From: a virus
Strand: one strand, 5' to 3'
Length of the DNA stretch: 43,730 nucleotides
IMG/VR virus record: IMGVR_UViG_3300043431_000467
Coordinates: 1 to 43,730 of that record
A model generated the notes under the pieces. The model did no database searches. It was not told the DNA's origin and worked only from the letters and a program-made list of their open reading frames with translations. A program made the translations under genes and the position numbers. Below are positions 9,752 through 43,438 of the stretch, in pieces. How positions within the stretch are numbered: position 1 is the first letter of the stretch; each line of letters starts with the position of its first letter.

Positions 9752-10032
9752 TGGCCGGACCGTACACAACCAGTCGCTACTCCGGGCGCCGCCGCGCGGC
9801 GGCGCCCGTGCGCATGCTTCAGGTGCGGGACGCGGCCCCTACAGCTGCGTCCGGATCGGAGGATCCGCTCGGCGGCGGGTCCGGCGGCGGTCTGCCGTCC
9901 GGATTGACGAGTCGATACTCCGGTGCGCGGCGGGCCGTGCCGACCATCAAAATGATCAGCCTGCAGCCGGCCCCGGTTCCTGTTGTCTCTGAGAGCACCC
10001 AATCTGATCCCCTTCCGGTGTTGTTTATATGA
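9751..10032 (+). CDS. Small unknown protein in the fibre cluster
   Basis: 93 codons; ATG shares a base with the fibre stop (TGATG). I do not recognise the family. It contains an internal duplication, TSRYSGRRRAA near the N-terminus and TSRYSGARRAV about 45 residues later, separated by a Gly/Ser-rich linker. Two Ser-Arg-Tyr-Ser-Gly-x-Arg-Arg units in so small a protein suggest a two-fold binding surface. Placement among fibre genes suggests a structural or assembly role. Confidence 0.6.
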   Translation: MAGPYTTSRYSGRRRAAAPVRMLQVRDAAPTAASGSEDPLGGGSGGGLPSGLTSRYSGARRAVPTIKMISLQPAPVPVVSESTQSDPLPVLFI

Positions 10033-10631
10033 CGGTCACAAAGTATAAAGATGCAGTCGACGTCACCCACGAATTTCAGCAGGAAGCGGGGGATAACGGC
10101 GGCTCAGAAGTACGTCCGGTTGCAGGGATGCCTAGTGCGGTGCGCGCGCAATTTACTGCGATGGCCGCGAGCCTGGTGGCGATCGACGCGAATACGAACA
10201 CGGTCGAAGCTCTGATCGGAACGACGAACTCGACGCTGTCTACGATCGATGGACGGGTAGACGGACTCGAAGCTCTGATCGGAACGACGAACTCGACGCT
10301 GTCTACGATCGACGGACGCGTAGACGGGCTTGAGGCTCTGATCGGAACGACGAACTCGAGCCTCGACCCCGGCACGTGCGTCACGAATCAGACGTCCAGC
10401 ACCACCACAAGTGCGGCGTTCTCCAGCCAGGCATGTACGCTCGGAGCCTGGGTCAAGAACATCTCGACCTCGAACCAGATCATCTACGTCAAGATGAACG
10501 CGACGGCCACCTCGGGCAACGGCTACCAGCTGACCGTAGGAGAAGAGCGATTCTTTCCGTGCGCGAACATGACCGAAATCAACCACATCGCATCCGCAAC
10601 CGGGGCTAACACGTGCTGGGAAGCGATCTGA
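10029..10631 (+). CDS. Fibre-like protein with a 21-residue coiled-coil repeat
   Basis: 200 codons, ATGA overlap with the preceding gene. Residues about 60-108 are two exact-length copies and a partial third copy of a 21-residue unit (EALIGTTNS, TLSTIDGRVDGL), i.e. three heptads per unit, coded by 63-bp DNA repeats at 10206-10361. Such I/L-heptad segments form trimeric coiled-coil shafts in phage fibres. The C-terminal about 90 residues (WVKNISTSNQIIYVKMNA, LTVGEERFFPCANM) look like a small beta domain at the tip. Function inferred as a tail fibre or adhesin. Confidence 0.65.
   Translation: MTVTKYKDAVDVTHEFQQEAGDNGGSEVRPVAGMPSAVRAQFTAMAASLVAIDANTNTVEALIGTTNSTLSTIDGRVDGLEALIGTTNSTLSTIDGRVDGLEALIGTTNSSLDPGTCVTNQTSSTTTSAAFSSQACTLGAWVKNISTSNQIIYVKMNATATSGNGYQLTVGEERFFPCANMTEINHIASATGANTCWEAI
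10206..10361 (+). repeat. 63-bp in-frame tandem repeat (2 full copies plus part)
   Basis: Copies begin at 10206, 10269 and 10332 (the third is cut short after about 30 bases). They are nearly identical at the DNA level and encode three heptads each, so copy number could change by recombination or slippage without breaking the frame. Confidence 0.85.
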
Positions 10632-11479
10632 ATAGTCCAGCACTGCGACGGGCGCGGCGCCCGCGCGGGCTTCTTGACGGGGTGAGCGTTACTCCGCTAG
10701 AGGCTTGGTCGTGCGCCTGGCTGCTGAACAGTCGGTACAAGGGACCGCTGTTCACGGTGCGGGATGATACTACGACCGGGACGCAGGATATCTACCCGCG
10801 CAACGGTCGCGTCGATCTGTTCTCCCTGCTGTCGTTTCTTGGCGGGCACTCGGGAGCAATTGAGACGGTCTATGGGCAATACAACGGAAAAAATCACTCT
10901 ACGTCGGGTGGTGGCACGCGCCCCCGCATAGTTCTCAGCGGTACGCTAGACGTAACCGCCAACAACACCCCCACCATGGTGTTCGCTGGCGCCCAAGTGT
11001 TGGCTCATGGAACCGCACTGGGTATGACCGGATCGCCTGCTTTGACGATGCTGTATTGTGGGTTGTCAACAGTCAACTCCAAAATCATGGCGGGGCTAGG
11101 CGATCTCGGCACCAACAATAAGTGCTTCGCCCACAACACCGGCACGTCCTCTACCGTACCCTTAATCACACAGGCGGGTGCGTTTCGTGGGTTCACGGCC
11201 TCGGCGCAGAGCTCACAGCACTACTACATTGCGGGCAAAGCGGCATCCGCTACGCCCTCCGCCTTCACTCTAGAGCAAGACGGCACAGCGCTTTCGCAGG
11301 CGTCGCTGACTAACGGGGCAACTGCGCAGAATATGACAGATACCAACGTGGTGTGGGGGCACAACGGCCAAGGCACGGCGTATATGACAGGCAACTCCAA
11401 TGTCTTGGCAATCTGGAATGCCGTGCTGTCAGGGGACGACCTGCTGCTCGCTCGCGCGTGCGGCGCAGCGCATATGTAA
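10613..11479 (+). CDS. Tail protein resembling the arabinofuranosidase B / LamG-like fold
   Basis: 288 codons if started at GTG 10613, inside the end of the previous gene; GTG 10682 is an alternative start. The N-terminal part (RRARRPRGLLDG, then LEAWSCAWLLNSRYKGPLF, VRDDTTTGTQDIY and VYGQYNGKNH) follows the pattern of alpha-L-arabinofuranosidase B catalytic-domain-like modules, where an AYSLRxLxxxYTGP segment and a TTWYDQSGN motif occur. Here the usual W-Y-D-Q is changed to VYGQYNG, so catalysis is doubtful. The rest is a concanavalin-like beta-rich sequence. In phages such modules act as glycan-binding tail proteins; this is inference. Confidence 0.55.
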   Translation: MLGSDLNSPALRRARRPRGLLDGVSVTPLEAWSCAWLLNSRYKGPLFTVRDDTTTGTQDIYPRNGRVDLFSLLSFLGGHSGAIETVYGQYNGKNHSTSGGGTRPRIVLSGTLDVTANNTPTMVFAGAQVLAHGTALGMTGSPALTMLYCGLSTVNSKIMAGLGDLGTNNKCFAHNTGTSSTVPLITQAGAFRGFTASAQSSQHYYIAGKAASATPSAFTLEQDGTALSQASLTNGATAQNMTDTNVVWGHNGQGTAYMTGNSNVLAIWNAVLSGDDLLLARACGAAHM

Positions 11480-11501
11480 GTTCTGCTATGGTCAGTCTTA
11501 G

Positions 11502-11750
11502 ATGTCGATCGACCTTGTATCTGCCCTGATCGGGGCAGCCATTCCCTTGACTCTGGCCGGCATCGGCATAGCTGTATCTTGGGGTAAGCTGAATCAGCTA
11601 GTAGCCACCCTATTCAATACAGTACAACATATGGCGGAGGCGGTAGAGAAGTTGACCGACAGCCACGCCTCCGTCAGAACAACGGTAGAACAGCACGACG
11701 AACGACTAGACCGGCTCGAAGCGCCGCTCTTCCGCAAGCAAAACCACTAG
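11502..11750 (+). CDS. Small membrane protein with coiled coil (lysis cassette candidate)
   Basis: 82 codons. One hydrophobic segment (about residues 6-27, ALIGAAIPLTLAGIGIAV) is followed by about 50 residues of amphipathic helix ending in TVEQHDERLDRLEAPL. A single N-terminal membrane anchor plus a coiled coil is the layout of inner-membrane spanins and of XhlA-like lysis accessory proteins. The lipoprotein and endolysin genes follow within 1 kb. Which lysis role it has cannot be decided from sequence. Confidence 0.6.
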   Translation: MSIDLVSALIGAAIPLTLAGIGIAVSWGKLNQLVATLFNTVQHMAEAVEKLTDSHASVRTTVEQHDERLDRLEAPLFRKQNH

Positions 11751-11787
11751 TTCTGCGTCCGGTGCGGGCGTGTGCTAGAACAACGAC

Positions 11788-11997
11788 ATGATGGTCCAGC
11801 AAATCCTCATGTACGTCGGCATGACCTACGCCTTCTGCGGTGCGCTGCTGCCCGTGGTCGAAGTCCTCAAGATGTTCGCCGCGCAGAACGGCTCGGAAGG
11901 GCCGGAAGACAAGGCGCTGTCGAGCTTCGAGTCGTTCCTGCATAGCGCAGCGGATCTGCTGGGCCGCCTCGGTCCTGACTTTCGGGCGAAGAAATGA
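11788..11997 (+). CDS. Small membrane protein, holin candidate
   Basis: 69 codons; ATG ATG start. A hydrophobic stretch at about residues 5-31 (ILMYVGMTYAFCGALLPVVE) precedes a polar C-terminal half ending in Arg-Ala-Lys-Lys. Size, membrane segment and place just before the lipoprotein and endolysin genes make it a holin or holin-like candidate; nothing more specific was recognised. It overlaps the next gene by ATGA. Confidence 0.6.
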   Translation: MMVQQILMYVGMTYAFCGALLPVVEVLKMFAAQNGSEGPEDKALSSFESFLHSAADLLGRLGPDFRAKK

Positions 11998-12173
11998 AGT
12001 CGCTAGCGGGGCTGGCCCTGGGGGCGGTCGGGTTTGTTCTCGACCGCCTGATCTCCATCTTCGAGACCCCTCTGCCGCCGAAGCCGGTCGAGAAGGTGTT
12101 CCCGCACGAAGGCGTTCCGGAAGAGTTTCTCGACCGGCTACTCAAAGAGGCAAAGGATCTAGACCCACAATGA
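11994..12173 (+). CDS. Small membrane-anchored protein in the lysis cassette
   Basis: 59 codons, from ATG 11994 (overlapping the previous stop) to TGA 12171-12173. The N-terminal segment SLAGLALGAVGFVLDRLIS is hydrophobic; the rest is a short acidic and proline-containing tail. Family not recognised. Tight overlaps on both sides (ATGA at each end) make translation likely. Confidence 0.6.
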   Translation: MKSLAGLALGAVGFVLDRLISIFETPLPPKPVEKVFPHEGVPEEFLDRLLKEAKDLDPQ

Positions 12174-12676
12174 AGCAACTCCTCGTACTATCCCTGGTTC
12201 TGACTGGCTGTGCGTCCACCCTTCCCGAGATCAAACACGACCTCGAAGAGGGGGCGCAGAAGGTTGCAGAGGCGATCGACCACGGCCGTAACGCCGTTGT
12301 GGCGGCGCGCAAGAAACAAGACCAGCTCCGCGGGGAGTTGCAGCCCTTCGCGATGGCGTCGGTGCAGCTCTGCAGCGGCGTGCCCGTCGACCCGCAGGCA
12401 TGTGCGGATCTTGACGTCATTCAGAACGAGCTGTTCCGCGCGTTCGACGTGTCGGGGCAGGCGTTGACGGTCGCAGAGCAAGCGGCGTTTGATGCATCTG
12501 CAGCCTTCCGTACCTTCAGCGAAGGTCACGGCAGCTTCAAGGCCGCATTCGACGGCGCCGCGAAGCTTGTGGCGGCGGCGCGCAAGGCCGGCGATGGCGT
12601 CGAGCAACTCCTTGCCGTAGCGAAAGACTACGCAGAAGCGGTGTCGAATCTTGCCGCAAAGCTCAAACAAGCCTAG
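12170..12676 (+). CDS. Lipoprotein in the lysis cassette (outer-membrane spanin candidate)
   Basis: 168 codons from ATG 12170, chosen because it overlaps the upstream TGA and gives a proper lipoprotein signal: Lys at 3, a Leu/Val-rich core and the lipobox LTGC with Cys 14. The mature part is helical and Ala/Lys/Glu-rich, with two more cysteines near the middle. A lipoprotein next to small membrane proteins and an endolysin suggests a spanin-like role in outer-membrane disruption, though it is longer than typical Rz1. It also implies a Gram-negative host. Confidence 0.6.
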   Translation: MKQLLVLSLVLTGCASTLPEIKHDLEEGAQKVAEAIDHGRNAVVAARKKQDQLRGELQPFAMASVQLCSGVPVDPQACADLDVIQNELFRAFDVSGQALTVAEQAAFDASAAFRTFSEGHGSFKAAFDGAAKLVAAARKAGDGVEQLLAVAKDYAEAVSNLAAKLKQA

Positions 12677-13196
12677 CCCGTTCAAGTGGAAGGCCGCGCC
12701 CACCCCTTCCGATCCAGATCACGTAACGATCCTGGAGGGGTGGGACCGGCTGAACATTACGTCCTTCGCGTGCGAGGAACTTGCGCGCTGGACGCATGGC
12801 AAGAGCCGCATTGTGACGATGAACCACCAGTGTCGCGAGTCGTTTCTAGGTCTATGGGCCGCGTGGGAGAAAGACGGCGCGCTTGAGCGGTTCAAGTCCG
12901 ACTACACGCCAGCGCCGACCCGCGCGATTGTACACGACGGCTGGGCCGGAGCATACAACCCACGGTACAAGCGCGGCGTCGCACACGATCAGAACCCGAA
13001 CCACCTCAGCAACCATGCGAGCGGCCATGCGTTTGATATCGCCGCACAGCGCTACCCGCTCGGCCGCGAGATTCCCGGCCCGGATCTGATCCACCTTCTT
13101 GTTCCGATCGCCAAGTCCTACGGCTGGCGTTGGGGCGGCGAGTTCACGCGCCGCGATGGCATGCACTTCCAGCACGAAACGAGTCCATTCACATGA
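12651..13196 (+). CDS. Endolysin, peptidase M15-type
   Basis: 181 codons from TTG 12651, overlapping the lipoprotein gene by 26 bases; no better in-frame start was seen. The zinc-peptidase signature of M15 is clear: SNHASGHAFDI (the SxHxxGxAxD motif with His and Asp ligands, about residues 120-130) and DGMHFQ near the C-terminus with the third ligand His. Such enzymes cut peptide bonds in the peptidoglycan stem. No signal peptide is visible, so export would depend on a holin. It overlaps the next gene by ATGA. Confidence 0.8.
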   Translation: MPQSSNKPSPFKWKAAPTPSDPDHVTILEGWDRLNITSFACEELARWTHGKSRIVTMNHQCRESFLGLWAAWEKDGALERFKSDYTPAPTRAIVHDGWAGAYNPRYKRGVAHDQNPNHLSNHASGHAFDIAAQRYPLGREIPGPDLIHLLVPIAKSYGWRWGGEFTRRDGMHFQHETSPFT

Positions 13197-13609
13197 GCGC
13201 AACGACTACAGCCGCTACGGCGGTCATCGACGATATCGAAGCCCACACCGGCGGCGTAACTGCAAACGATCTGAACGTTGCGATGTCGCGCGTGGTTGTG
13301 GAGTTCGCTGAGTCGGGCGTGACTGCTAGCGAGTCCGGTGGTGCGACCGGCGCCGCAACCGCCGTAGCGATGACCACCGCAAGCGCTACGCTTATCGCGG
13401 CGAACGCTAGCCGAGTCGGACTCATGATCTACAACCCATTGGCGGTAACGCTGTACGTGCGTTTCGAGAATGCGGACGCGGCTACTGTTCAGTCCTTTTG
13501 GGTTCTGCCCGGCGAGACGTACGAGATGCCTCGTCGATACTACACCGGGATCGTGAAGGCTGCAACCGCCTCCAGCTCCGGCAGCGTCTTTGTCACGGAG
13601 ATCGTGTAA
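13193..13609 (+). CDS. Small phage structural protein (unknown, beta-rich)
   Basis: 138 codons from ATG 13193 (ATGA overlap with the endolysin). The C-terminal half, with ATLIAANASRVGLMIYNPLA, LYVRFENADA and YEMPRRYYTGIVKA, has the pattern of small beta-rich phage proteins whose strands read as 'nANRxGLxIYN...LYV...YExPxxYTG'. Their exact role is not established; they occur among tail or head decoration genes. Placed after the lysis genes and before a glycine-rich protein. Confidence 0.6.
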   Translation: MSATTTAATAVIDDIEAHTGGVTANDLNVAMSRVVVEFAESGVTASESGGATGAATAVAMTTASATLIAANASRVGLMIYNPLAVTLYVRFENADAATVQSFWVLPGETYEMPRRYYTGIVKAATASSSGSVFVTEIV

Positions 13610-14631
13610 TGCCTATTCATGCTCCTCGCGGGCCCGCGCGCATCGTCGATCACTACGACACCGCCGGCACCACGGCCGTCACGACACGTACGGGCTATCA
13701 AGTTGTTGAGCTACTGCTACGTCCCGGCGCCCAAGGCGGAGGAGGAGGCGGGGGCGGAGGTATCGGCCAAACATCTGCTACGGGCGGGGGAGGCGGAGGA
13801 GCGGGTAACGGTGGCGGTGGCGGTGGGGCCTCTATGCTGCGTGTGCCCTGCTCGATCGCACCGGGCACCGTGCTCACTCTGGTGCGCGGTGCGGGGGGCA
13901 CGGGTGGTGCGGGGGGTACGTCGGGCGCCAACAATTCTGTGGCGGGGTCTGTCGGGTCCCCGTCGTATGTGACGACACAAGCTGGAGTCCACATCGCGAA
14001 GACCGCGGGCCTTGTAACTATAGCCGGCAACGGGGGGAACAAAGGCAACAACGCATCTGCGGGCAACGGGGGTACCGCAGGTAGCGGGCAGTCTCTTACA
14101 GCAGCTAACACGCGACACTTTGGCCTGAACCTCCCGAACGCTGACGTTACCGGCAACGCAGGAGGGGCAGGGGGCGCAAGCAGCAACCCCGGCAATTCGC
14201 CCACTACGCCAAATCTACCAACCGGGGCCGTTCTCGCCTTCCCGTCCACCTACGCCACTGTCCCGAGCAACGCAGCGGGTGGTGCCGCAGACACCACCGC
14301 GGGCGGGGGCGGGGCCGGGGCATCCGGAGGTACCGGCGGACCCGGAGATGAAGTCGACTACGGCCTCGGAATCGCTCCGCTGACTGGTGCCGGTTCCGGT
14401 GTGGGTGGCGCTGGCGGCGCTGGCGGCGCTGGCTCTGTAGCAGGCACTGGCACGACGGGCTCGAACGGCAGTAATGGCGCGACTGGGTCCCACGGCAGAG
14501 GCGGTGGCGGTGGCGGTGGCGCGGGCGGCGGTGGCGCTGGGCTTTCCGCGGGCGGGGCAGGTGGTGTTGGCGGCACAGGCGGCGACGGCAGCCCAGGCTA
14601 CATCGGCCTGGTCTACGCGCGCCTGAGCTGA
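13609..14631 (+). CDS. Glycine-rich tail fibre-like protein
   Basis: 340 codons from ATG 13609, sharing a base with the preceding TAA. After about 35 residues (TGYQVVELLLRPGAQ) there are long poly-glycine tracts, a short GTVLTLVRGAGGTGG strand, and further GGxGGxGG runs to the end, closing with a YIGLVYARLS strand. This is the architecture of Gly_rich-type phage tail proteins, in which glycine tracts form polyglycine-II sandwiches bearing receptor-binding loops. It is the last gene of the plus-strand late operon and overlaps the opposing array gene by 19 bases. Confidence 0.6.
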   Translation: MPIHAPRGPARIVDHYDTAGTTAVTTRTGYQVVELLLRPGAQGGGGGGGGGIGQTSATGGGGGGAGNGGGGGGASMLRVPCSIAPGTVLTLVRGAGGTGGAGGTSGANNSVAGSVGSPSYVTTQAGVHIAKTAGLVTIAGNGGNKGNNASAGNGGTAGSGQSLTAANTRHFGLNLPNADVTGNAGGAGGASSNPGNSPTTPNLPTGAVLAFPSTYATVPSNAAGGAADTTAGGGGAGASGGTGGPGDEVDYGLGIAPLTGAGSGVGGAGGAGGAGSVAGTGTTGSNGSNGATGSHGRGGGGGGGAGGGGAGLSAGGAGGVGGTGGDGSPGYIGLVYARLS

Positions 14632-37235: not shown

Positions 37236-38183
37236 CTACTCGTCGGGTAGGCGCACAAGATCGCGAGTGGAGTTCCAGTGGTCCGGGGTGGGCGTGGTCA
37301 GCCAGTGCTCATTGCCGCCTCTACGGAACGCCAGGAGCTTGCGTGCGATGGGGACCGTCACCCAGTGGCGGTTCCAGACGTAGGCCCACAGGTAGGCGCA
37401 GAAGCGGGCCAAGGGGTCGGAGCAGTGGTGCATGACCCTACGTTGTAGGGTCATTATCTCCTTCGGGGGCATGGAGGTGTGAAATCGCGCGAGCGGTTCG
37501 TCGGACGAAGTACCTAGGAGGCGGCGGCGGGGGGCGACACGCCATGCGGGGTAGGATTCTTCCGGGAAGTAGGAGCTGGTGAGGCGTAGGCCGGTGTAGT
37601 CGCCTGGCGGGATCTGTGGCATGTGGCCGCCGGTCTCGGCGGGGATTCCCGTGCGCTCGTAGGCTTCGAGCACACGGCGGCGGTGGTCGCGCGCGACTCT
37701 GCGGCGCCACAGTTTGGCGACGCGGTTTTCCTCAGGTGTGAGTTCGCCGCGCCACTTCTGTTCGTAGAATTGTGGGCCTGGGTAGTACCCCCGGCGCCAG
37801 CGGTCCGGGCGGGGGCGCTCACCATCCCACAGTCCCACCCAGCCCAGGATCTGGTGCTGCAGGCGTAGGTCGTATGCCTGCGGTACGTGGTCTGTCCAGG
37901 GGCAGGGTAGGCGTTGTGGGGTGCCGGGTATGGGTGCGTCGCAGCATAGGTCGCGACACTGCATGTCTGCTCTAAGCTGATTGTGCAGATAGCGTACAGC
38001 CAGGTCAATGAGGTCGGCGCCGTTCTCCGGCCAGCGGTCGGGTTGGGTCCGGTTGTGCGCGAGCCACGCACGCGTGCGCGCTATCTGCGCGGCTGGGGCG
38101 AGGATGTCGAGCTTCCGCGAGTTGTGCCACCTAGCACCGACAGGGTCTTGTTTCCGTTTATACACCATTTCCAGATTCTCCAT
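37236..38183 (-). CDS. Unknown protein, 315 residues
   Basis: From ATG 38183; ATG 38168 has GGAG upstream and may be the true start. Trp/Arg/Pro-rich sequence with no domain I can name: WPENGADLIDLAVRYLHN, CRDLCCDAPIPG, RRRVARDHRRRVLEAYERTG, MHHCSDPLARFCAYLWAYVW. The first large gene of the leftward operon, hence perhaps an early function. Cysteine pairs near residue 100 may bind a metal. Confidence 0.65.
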   Translation of the reverse strand: MENLEMVYKRKQDPVGARWHNSRKLDILAPAAQIARTRAWLAHNRTQPDRWPENGADLIDLAVRYLHNQLRADMQCRDLCCDAPIPGTPQRLPCPWTDHVPQAYDLRLQHQILGWVGLWDGERPRPDRWRRGYYPGPQFYEQKWRGELTPEENRVAKLWRRRVARDHRRRVLEAYERTGIPAETGGHMPQIPPGDYTGLRLTSSYFPEESYPAWRVAPRRRLLGTSSDEPLARFHTSMPPKEIMTLQRRVMHHCSDPLARFCAYLWAYVWNRHWVTVPIARKLLAFRRGGNEHWLTTPTPDHWNSTRDLVRLPDE

Positions 38184-40224: not shown

Positions 40225-40316
40225 GGCTCTGGGCCCAGTTCTACGAACATCTCAGTAATTTCTACTACCCCACCGTCGAGTTCCGCCAACCCCCAATCGT
40301 TGCACGCCGCGCTTGA
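40116..40316 (+). CDS. QL-repeat micro-protein, right array gene 7
   Basis: 66 codons. Begins as gene 4 (NTSQLHAQLDAQLDAQ), then LWAQFYEHLSNFYYP and a non-repeat end REFRQP-like tail (VEFRQPPIVARRA). It lacks LREQ because its 3' part runs antisense into the large terminase gene for 65 bases; perhaps a truncated copy. Confidence 0.65.
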   Translation: MNTSQLHAQLDAQLDAQLHAQLWAQLYAELYAQLYARLWAQFYEHLSNFYYPTVEFRQPPIVARRA

Positions 40317-42876
40317 GCTGCTCTTTCTTGCTGAGCAGCTGCACAGCCAACCGAGGGTCCTGCAAGACCTCGTCGGGGTACTTCGTCTCCACCTTGATGA
40401 AATCAAACGAGGGGATCGGGTTCTCGAGCAGGTATCTGTACGCTCCGGCGAGCGCCGAAACTGCATCATCCTTCGATTTCGGGTCCGGAAACCCTTCGAG
40501 TTGGTTGAAAAACTGCGTATTCCACGGACGTTCGAGGTAGTGAAGCTCTCCTCTAAAAGCCGCCTTACTGGCCTCGCGGGCGTGCCAGTCCTTGTTTTGC
40601 GTGTCCATCACGACACACGGCGCAAACCGGCGAATATCCGTCGCCAGGCGCTCAGCTTGATCGTCGCCCGCCTGCCCCGGATCCCGGAAAATCACCACTG
40701 TCGTGCGCGGCCCGTCTTGCTGCGCGCAGCGCAACTGCAACGCTTGCACCGCCCCCGGAGAGTCTCGATGGAACGTCGCGTCCGGAATCACGATTCTCCC
40801 GTTGCGTGTCCGGTCCAGCTTTACGCTGACCGTCCAGTCCGGGTTGTCGAGCTTGCCGTCGCGCGCTTTGAAGCTCTCCGGGCGAATCACCCCCGGAATC
40901 AGTTCGCCCTCTATCGGCGTCGAAGCGGTATCCCAGCATCTCACGGACTGCACGATATCCGCTGCGCGCCCCTCCTGCGACAAGAGCACGCGCTCGAGGT
41001 CCGTCTGCCCCCAAACCTTGAACGCGACCTTCTGGAAGAAGTCCCCAACCCCCTGTCTGACGTTCCAATTCCCCCCGAGGTACCTGTCGCGCTCGACCGC
41101 AGTCATAGACTTGAGGTTCGCGAGGTACTCCGGATCCTTGTCCATCAGGATCTGGTTGTCCGACAACAAGCTCGGGATGAACGTCAACGACATAACAGAG
41201 CGGGGGTCGTTCTCTACGTAGCGCAGCAACTCCTCGGGCGTAGCCGCCCAAACGATCTCGTCCTTGACCCGGACGTAGTGCCGCACCACCCCCGCCCGCG
41301 ACATGATTGGGTACCCGTCCTCGCCGATCCACCAGTCGATCAGTGACCGCAAGTAGCAGTCGGGATCAGGGTTTGTCGTGACCGCAACCTGACGCGGAAC
41401 GTTCGCCATACCTCGAAGGCGGCTGATGATGAAGAAAAACTGCTTTCCTTCGAACTCCGAGCCCTCGTCAAGCCCGATGTAGTCGTACTGCTTAGACTTG
41501 TGCGAGACAGCGTCCTTCTCGTGCTGCATGTGCTTGAGCTCGACTCGCGCGCGCGAGCCGTCGAAGACCCATTCAGAGCGGTTCTGATTGAACTTCCCGC
41601 CCAAGTCCGGGTAGAAGTTCCGTGTCTCGTCGAGCAACGAGCCGCCACCTTCGAGCATCTTGAACGTGCGCCGGAAGATGATCGCGTTGTAGCCCTTGAT
41701 GTGACTGTACTTTGCTGCCCTCCAAGCCTGGTACCACGAGTTATGGGTAGGTATGCAGGCGCGAGAGATCAAGTAGGTATGATCGGGGGAGTCGACCGCA
41801 ATGCACATCATAGACCCGGGATCTACTACCCTCTCGGCCGCTACTATGTAGTGATAGTTCTGGGTCTTGCGACGACGGGGCTGCCAAGCAGCTAGTTTGC
41901 GTGGGAGGCGGCACGGCTGAAACGCCGGAGTGAAGTACACAGACCACTTAGGTCCGCAGTCCTTGCCGTAGAGCGATGCGCGGCCCTCGCAGATAGTAGG
42001 TTTCGCCCCTAGACTGGCCGCCAGCCAATAGACTGCATCCGCCAGTTTTTTATTGGTGTTGCAGAATTCGACACGCCCGCCCTTACCCTTTTCGACATGC
42101 CCGTCGGTGTCTATCAGCCCTTGGAGCAGAGCTAGGCGCTGCCCTGCCGACGCGAGCAGGTACGGCTCCGGTACGTGTTTGACCCCCAATACTCCTAAGT
42201 CACGAAGGGTCGAGGTCAGCTTTAGTATCGTTCCCTGCTTGAACGGCTTTTGTGGGTCCCTCTGGCGAAGGCTTCCGAGAGTCCAACCCTCCCGCTCCCA
42301 CGCCTGCCAGAGTTCGGGGTCCTCGCTGCTGTAGTCGCCAGCATCGGTGTTTCCGTCTCCTAGCCACAGTCCAAGAAGATAAGGGGCCAGCGGCAGCTTC
42401 ACTTCTGATAGCTCCAGCTGTGCGCACACCGGCACTGCATGATTCGTGCGCCGGGCTTTACGGCCCGGGACCAGAAGCGTGTCCGCGATCTCTTGCGTGG
42501 TGCGCACTTGCGGCTCCGGCACACGGCCGCGCCTCGCCCCTGCCTTGCGTTCGGCGTCCGTGCACGTAACCCATTGATGCTCCGCGCAAGCCTGGATGAC
42601 TTCTCCGTTGTCGAAGGTCAACCGAAAGACCACGGATGGGGTCTGAACGTCGGAGCACCACAGAACAGAGCATGTGCGCCCGTCGCGCCCGAGGACCAGA
42701 TCCCCCGGTTTTAGGGTGCCGATGGCTCGGGGACCTTGAGGGGTCTGGACTTCCTGTGAGATCGGCAGGGCCTTGCCCCCGCCCGCACCCCCTCCGAATA
42801 CTAGGATACGTGCCTTGCTCTTGGCCGCCATCATCTGCGGGCCCGGCTGCGGCTTGATGATGCGCGTCTCACTCAT
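40252..42876 (-). CDS. terL: Terminase large subunit interrupted by an intein
   Basis: 874 codons; removing the 344-residue intein leaves 530, a usual size for TerL. Walker A is GGGAGGGK (residues 28-35) followed by the intein and then S380. Walker B is YDYIGLDEG (Asp 470, Glu 471). The nuclease domain shows VRCWDTAS, FRDPGQAGDDQA and KSKDDAVSALAGAY, with the acidic residues of the RNase H-like fold. TerL packages DNA into the prohead and cuts it. The gene overlaps terS by 8 bases and its 3' end overlaps the opposing array gene. Confidence 0.93.
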   Translation of the reverse strand: MSETRIIKPQPGPQMMAAKSKARILVFGGGAGGGKALPISQEVQTPQGPRAIGTLKPGDLVLGRDGRTCSVLWCSDVQTPSVVFRLTFDNGEVIQACAEHQWVTCTDAERKAGARRGRVPEPQVRTTQEIADTLLVPGRKARRTNHAVPVCAQLELSEVKLPLAPYLLGLWLGDGNTDAGDYSSEDPELWQAWEREGWTLGSLRQRDPQKPFKQGTILKLTSTLRDLGVLGVKHVPEPYLLASAGQRLALLQGLIDTDGHVEKGKGGRVEFCNTNKKLADAVYWLAASLGAKPTICEGRASLYGKDCGPKWSVYFTPAFQPCRLPRKLAAWQPRRRKTQNYHYIVAAERVVDPGSMMCIAVDSPDHTYLISRACIPTHNSWYQAWRAAKYSHIKGYNAIIFRRTFKMLEGGGSLLDETRNFYPDLGGKFNQNRSEWVFDGSRARVELKHMQHEKDAVSHKSKQYDYIGLDEGSEFEGKQFFFIISRLRGMANVPRQVAVTTNPDPDCYLRSLIDWWIGEDGYPIMSRAGVVRHYVRVKDEIVWAATPEELLRYVENDPRSVMSLTFIPSLLSDNQILMDKDPEYLANLKSMTAVERDRYLGGNWNVRQGVGDFFQKVAFKVWGQTDLERVLLSQEGRAADIVQSVRCWDTASTPIEGELIPGVIRPESFKARDGKLDNPDWTVSVKLDRTRNGRIVIPDATFHRDSPGAVQALQLRCAQQDGPRTTVVIFRDPGQAGDDQAERLATDIRRFAPCVVMDTQNKDWHAREASKAAFRGELHYLERPWNTQFFNQLEGFPDPKSKDDAVSALAGAYRYLLENPIPSFDFIKVETKYPDEVLQDPRLAVQLLSKKEQLKRGVQRLGVGGTRRWGSRNY
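41740..42771 (-). mobile_element. Class 3 intein with LAGLIDADG endonuclease in the TerL P-loop
   Basis: 344 residues, precursor 36-379. It starts with Ala (ALPISQEVQTPQG), not Cys or Ser, and ends CIPTHN before Ser +1. The class 3 W-C-T set is present: Trp 67 in EHQW, Cys 323 in MMCIAVDSPD, Thr 342 in PTHN. Endonuclease motifs are LLGLWLGDG (Asp 139) and LLQGLIDTDG (Asp 223). Class 3 inteins begin splicing from the block F Cys. Both endonuclease motifs look intact, so homing may be active. Confidence 0.9.
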
Positions 42877-43438
42877 CGTCGTCGCCCTGCCAGACCTTCA
42901 CCTTCGGCGTGGCGTCGAGCGGCGGCGGCGCCTGCAGTTTGTCGAGCTCCCCGAAGTGCTTCAGAAGCAGCATCAAGATCTGCGACTTGTCGACGAACGT
43001 GTACGACCAGCGCCCCTTCGCGAAGTTTACGCTCTTGATCGCCGCGCGTAGCGGCGCCGGAAGCTCATCCGGCGGCAACACGCCCCGTTCCTGGATCTCC
43101 CCGTACTCCGAGTCCTTGGTGGTGAGCTGGCCGATCAAGTCCTTGATGTCCCACCCGGCCGCGAGCTGCCACAGCGCCTGCAGGCAGCCGTCGCGGATGT
43201 CGCGATGCCTATCTCTGCGCTCGGCATGCACCCACGCGATGTAGCGCTGTACGGGGCGATTCTTGAGAATCCCCTCGCCGAACGCCGCCGCGCCTCTGTC
43301 GCTGACCGAGTACCCCGCCGCGCGCACGGCAGCAGCGATCGACATGTTCGGGTCGGATAGGAAGTGATCGCAGAAAGCGCGCTCCTGCGGCTTCAGATCG
43401 GCGGTGATGATCGCCAGATCGTCTTGCGGGGCGTCCAT
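42869..43438 (-). CDS. terS: Terminase small subunit
   Basis: 189 codons from ATG 43438 (shares a base with the upstream TGA). LKPQERAFCDHFLSDPN, then AAAVRAAGYSVSDRGAAAFG and NRPVQRYIAWVHAE are the Terminase_2 DNA-binding domain pattern. The C-terminal half is helical with a terminal acidic QGDDDE. It recognises packaging sites and activates TerL, encoded directly downstream. Confidence 0.85.
   Translation of the reverse strand: MDAPQDDLAIITADLKPQERAFCDHFLSDPNMSIAAAVRAAGYSVSDRGAAAFGEGILKNRPVQRYIAWVHAERRDRHRDIRDGCLQALWQLAAGWDIKDLIGQLTTKDSEYGEIQERGVLPPDELPAPLRAAIKSVNFAKGRWSYTFVDKSQILMLLLKHFGELDKLQAPPPLDATPKVKVWQGDDDE

Follow-up and report, generated by a model that had tools for sequence, protein, structure and literature searches.

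Class 3 inteins are defined by a Trp-Cys-Thr (WCT) set made up of Trp B:12, Cys F:4 and Thr G:5, by the absence of a nucleophile at position 1 and by Ser or Thr at position +1 (PMC5050341, PMC5222942). Their splicing chemistry is established (PMC5222942, PMC7664689), and the characterised members splice with a requirement for Cys F:4 (PMC5222942). The large terminase subunit (TerL) is the commonest intein host in mycobacteriophages, where the TerL1-a intein separates two invariant P-loop residues, Lys and Thr (Kelley et al. 2016, PMC5050341). In the same study, splicing was observed for five terminase inteins and cleavage of intein-free alleles for two (TerL1-b and TerL1-c). TerL inteins are also on record in the phages Rak2/K64-1 and Vibrio JA1, and the intein of the MIJ3 paper lies in PolB, not in TerL.

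The TerL intein of NelitzaMV (KT222941) resembles the intein described here in its site directly after the Lys of Walker A and before a Ser/Thr, its Ala1, its WCT set and its LAGLIDADG endonuclease, and the two are 36.7% identical over all 344 residues. Every class 3 residue is present in the NelitzaMV copy, whose junctions read ARKNGK^ALDVETP...PTHN^T (^ marks a splice junction), and from its site and phage group we infer that it is the TerL1-a intein of Kelley et al. 2016. However, its host belongs to the TerL1 (Terminase_1) family and has Thr at +1, whereas the host of our intein is of the Terminase_6 family and has Ser. The mini-inteins MsmDnaBi1 and MchDnaB1 (6BS8, 6RIX/6RIY) share with our intein the class 3 Hint fold, insertion in a P-loop and the positions of the WCT residues and His B:10, with Trp67 the same even by number. 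In contrast, they interrupt DnaB, lack an endonuclease and carry DxxH in block B where our intein has CxxH. TerL P-loop class 3 inteins from IMG/VR and GTDB (L171, 47% identical; L095, 46%; L092, 45%) have the same site (GGxxGGGK^S/T), class and length range, although the exteins of such hosts are only 23-27% identical to our TerL. Dozens more TerL P-loop class 3 inteins were found in this analysis, and the PHROGs terminase profile phrog_36964 aligns through the intein (residues 34-384). The arrangement is therefore already described and common, and the copy reported here is an ordinary further example.

An intein within the Walker A motif of TerL

The window (the whole stretch of DNA analysed), a 43,730-base virus record, encodes tail proteins (tape measure, baseplate hub and baseplate wedge) and replication proteins (DNA polymerase, helicase and primase). 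A megablast search of positions 20000-43730 against a phage collection gave no match, and the phage thus has no near relative in that collection. Several of the long ORFs (200-377 aa) at positions 10029-14631 and 37236-38183 are without a PHROG match. In this window, the Walker A motif of TerL is almost certainly split by a class 3 intein of full length that carries a LAGLIDADG homing endonuclease, and this intein would be expected to splice and to home (Table 1).

Table 1. Features of the intein-bearing terminase locus, in window coordinates.
Feature	Position	Strand	Details
terS (small terminase)	42869..43438	-	directly upstream, 8-base overlap with terL start; phrog_51, 3.8e-12
terL precursor ORF	40252..42876	-	874 aa; N-extein, intein and C-extein; phrog_979 terminase large subunit, 1e-107
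N-extein	42772..42876	-	35 aa; C-terminal end is Walker A FGGGAGGGK; last residue Lys35
Class 3 intein	41740..42771	-	344 aa, Ala1 to Asn344
Block B core, His65 (B:10) to Thr69, including Trp67 (B:12)	42565..42579	-	codons counted from Ala1 at 42771
LAGLIDADG motif 1 (block C)	42352..42378	-	LLGLWLGDG, residues 132-140, Asp139
LAGLIDADG motif 2 (block E)	42100..42129	-	LLQGLIDTDG, residues 215-224, Asp223
Cys323 (F:4), predicted class 3 initiating nucleophile	41803..41805	-	coincides with the MchDnaB1 block F Cys; 170/170 inteins
Block G, Thr342-His343-Asn344 (G:5-G:7)	41740..41748	-	PDB and 170-intein alignments, junction DNA
C-extein	40252..41739	-	Ser+1 of Walker A, remaining ATPase (Walker B IGLDEG), RNase H-like nuclease

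A sequence-only reading of the window had proposed both the host protein and the limits of the insert, and each has held. Pfam finds Terminase_6N and Terminase_6C in the exteins, in keeping with the PHROG assignment, and the Walker B and nuclease residues are conserved. The protein thus has the Walker A/B ATPase, the RNase H-like nuclease and the adjoining terS gene of a Terminase_6 large terminase. The intein coordinates are exact to the base, as judged from the ORF translation and from the DNA of both junctions, with the Ala1 codon beginning at 42771 and the Asn344 codon ending at 41740. The intein starts with ALPISQ and ends with ACIPTHN, and the C-extein (ORF residues 380 onward) starts with SWYQAWR. 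The junction reads GGGAGGGK^S, which places the insertion between the Lys and the Ser of Walker A, as had been proposed. The Hint fold lies in one continuous frame with the host exteins, unbroken through the precursor. A group I intron was also considered, and is ruled out by the open frame throughout the insert and the presence of the Hint fold.

Class 3 residues, endonuclease and predicted fold

Position 1 is Ala, and the intein therefore lacks the Cys, Ser or Thr nucleophile, whereas the WCT set is complete: Trp67 (in EHQW), Cys323 (MMCIAV) and Thr342 (PTHN), each numbered as in the earlier reading. His65 (B:10), His343 (G:6), Asn344 (G:7) and Ser+1 are all present as well. In a phmmer search of PDB sequences, class 3 inteins came first, led by MchDnaB1 (6rix, 1.1e-10) and followed by MsmDnaBi1 (6bs8), and the next match was a gp41-1 intein engineered with a WCT set (6riz). 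In these alignments the HQW and THN triplets each fall on an identical triplet, and Cys323 falls on the Cys of block F. Matches to class 3 inteins of known structure at 1e-10, with Trp67 and Cys323 on the block B Trp and the block F Cys, exclude chance. The class 3 assignment would have failed had these two residues fallen outside blocks B and F; both occupy the WCT positions of MchDnaB1 and MsmDnaBi1, and the set remains in register in an alignment of 170 inteins.

That alignment comprises 170 distinct inteins, the window's included, extracted from the loci we collected. Since these loci were gathered with a class 3 intein alignment, using search patterns based on its endonuclease motifs, the conservation of the WCT set is in part a product of selection, and the counts describe the family rather than provide a blind test. 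His B:10 and Cys F:4 are invariant (170/170), Trp B:12 is found in 165 and Thr G:5 in 166, and the Asp of the first and second LAGLIDADG motif in 161 and 166, respectively. The flanks are mostly P-loops (GK^S in 91, GK^T in 51), and 38 of the 170 inteins are flanked by the TerL-type GGxxGGGK motif.

Both LAGLIDADG motifs proposed from the sequence are present, as read in blocks C and E, with the catalytic acids Asp139 and Asp223, and Lys198 of block D is intact too. Pfam recognises LAGLIDADG_3 in the intein above the cut-off (8.2e-10) and Hint_2 below it (2.2e-4), and a second LAGLIDADG_3 domain was found nowhere else in the window. An AlphaFold model of the intein, built with 36 sequences, has a pLDDT of 96.6, a pTM of 0.93 and no low-confidence segment. 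It matches 6BS8 with Z 19.5, rmsd 1.4 A and 34% identity, and 6RIX with Z 19.4 (Foldseek, VIA); class 3 Hint domains superpose on it within 1.4 to 1.9 A, at 33-34% identity. PI-SceI (the VMA intein), which likewise joins Hint to LAGLIDADG in a two-domain fold, is matched along the whole length (325 residues, Z 27.3; Foldseek, VIA). PI-SceI is itself a class 1 intein (Cys1), and its host protein is not TerL.

Several other TerL inteins among the collected loci have unusual characteristics. Five P-loop inteins (L073, L074, L079, L080 and L081) have Ala1 and Cys F:4 together with Phe B:12 and Asn G:5, such that F-C-N replaces W-C-T, and their LAGLIDADG motifs are degenerate; they are possibly a divergent class 3 branch. 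The P-loop intein of L078 combines Cys1 with a full WCT set, a mixed class 1/class 3 signature, and L088 has a class 3-like intein two residues further upstream in the P-loop (GGSRGG^P...THN^SKT). The 1298-aa TerL ORF of L002 (429-4322) apparently holds three inteins in one terminase, namely a class 3 intein in the P-loop, a Cys1 type ahead of Walker B and a Cys1 type near the C-terminus. Compared with it, the L003 TerL lacks the middle intein and has a different last one. In L046, a 788-aa TerL of Terminase_6 type, the P-loop is empty and a Cys1 intein-like insert is found at Walker B (PHIC...INKN^CFDE).

Distribution among terminase relatives

Eighty terminase relatives were collected with the C-extein alone. 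A P-loop intein is present in eight of them, and most of the others have an uninterrupted GGxxGGGKS/T; at the site of the window's insertion, the empty relatives read GGxAGGGKS/T. The intein is absent from all 30 of the TerLs closest by extein, and the best intein match (L171, from a Chloroflexi MAG) is 47% identical as an intein although its TerL extein is only 23% identical. Conversely, the nearest intein-bearing terminase by extein (L042) has an extein that is 31% identical and an intein that is only about 30% identical. We conclude that the intein is mobile, given that the 30 closest exteins are empty and the closest intein resides in a TerL only 23% alike. Such incongruence between intein and extein is the trace expected of horizontal movement by homing. 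In the intein tree, the window's copy groups with those of L093, L109 and L122 (terminase-like hosts with another type of P-loop) with a support of 95. Because many deep branches are weak, we claim mobility alone and name no donor. A 2011 study by Tori and Perler reportedly enlarged class 3 and suggested that it arose in phages.

Predicted splicing, rival readings and expected consequences for packaging

By analogy with characterised members of the class, Cys323 would attack the bond between Lys(-1) and Ala1 to form a branched thioester at block F, and the N-extein would then be passed to Ser+1. Cyclisation of Asn344 would free the intein, and conversion of the ester to a peptide bond would restore GGGAGGGKS. 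The endonuclease domain would cut intein-free terL at the conserved P-loop codons and in this way spread the intein. It could be argued that Ser+1 attacks the N-terminal junction directly and that Cys323 is dispensable, as in a class 2 intein, with which Ala1 and Ser+1 are compatible (PMC5222942). However, the full WCT set is present and aligned, the best structural matches to the Hint domain are class 3 inteins, and Cys F:4 was needed by all three WCT inteins tested (PMC5222942), such that a class 2 mechanism is highly improbable.

One residue that counts against this reading is Cys62 (B:7; codon 42586-42588, minus strand), which lies just upstream of the block B core and gives CxxH where DxxH is usual. 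The B:7 position is reported to be important for early splicing steps. Asp, the usual though not defining residue, occupies it in 103 of the 170 inteins and Cys in 26, the window's included; 11 of the 25 related class 3 inteins (among 169) with this Cys are at the TerL site. Given its presence in 25 relatives, the Cys is unlikely to inactivate the intein. This substitution, together with the degenerate endonuclease motifs of relatives L073, L079 and L081, might nevertheless suggest an intein in decay, either with a dead endonuclease and splicing retained or with splicing impaired. We consider such decay unlikely, since the intein keeps Lys198 and the Asp of each LAGLIDADG motif, the reading frame is uninterrupted, the model is confident along its whole length, and a splicing-dead insert in a phage TerL is expected to be lethal.

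A somewhat less probable proposal is that Cys323 pairs with Cys62 or another intein Cys under oxidative stress, holding TerL inactive. The precedent is MsmDnaBi1, also a class 3 intein, in which a reversible Cys118-Cys48 disulfide that involves the catalytic Cys blocks splicing (PMC6195587). The window intein has 11 Cys residues, one of them (Cys62) in block B, and Cys recurs at B:7 in the relatives noted above. Yet it has no Cys at the number of MsmDnaBi1 Cys48, most of its other Cys residues are poorly conserved, and shared descent would explain the recurrent Cys equally well. More doubtful still is the specific suggestion that Cys62 and Cys323 form a two-thiol active site, a sub-type in a group of phage P-loop inteins, whose oxidation would pause splicing and delay packaging.

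Under our preferred reading of an active class 3 intein, the split of Walker A means that ATP binding and hydrolysis are expected from spliced TerL only. It can soundly be inferred that splicing is required for TerL ATPase function and hence for packaging, and Kelley et al. 2016 reason similarly for phage TerL and its pentamer (PMC5050341). The suggestion, made in the sequence-only reading, that splicing is a regulatory point for packaging is speculation; for it the window sequence offers only what holds for class 3 inteins generally, and nothing in that sequence points specifically to regulation. As one more clear instance of a recurring arrangement, this locus does not by itself change the view of inteins or terminases. 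In packaging motors that are only distantly related, class 3 inteins recur at these same codons of the P-loop, where any loss that is tolerated must be exact.
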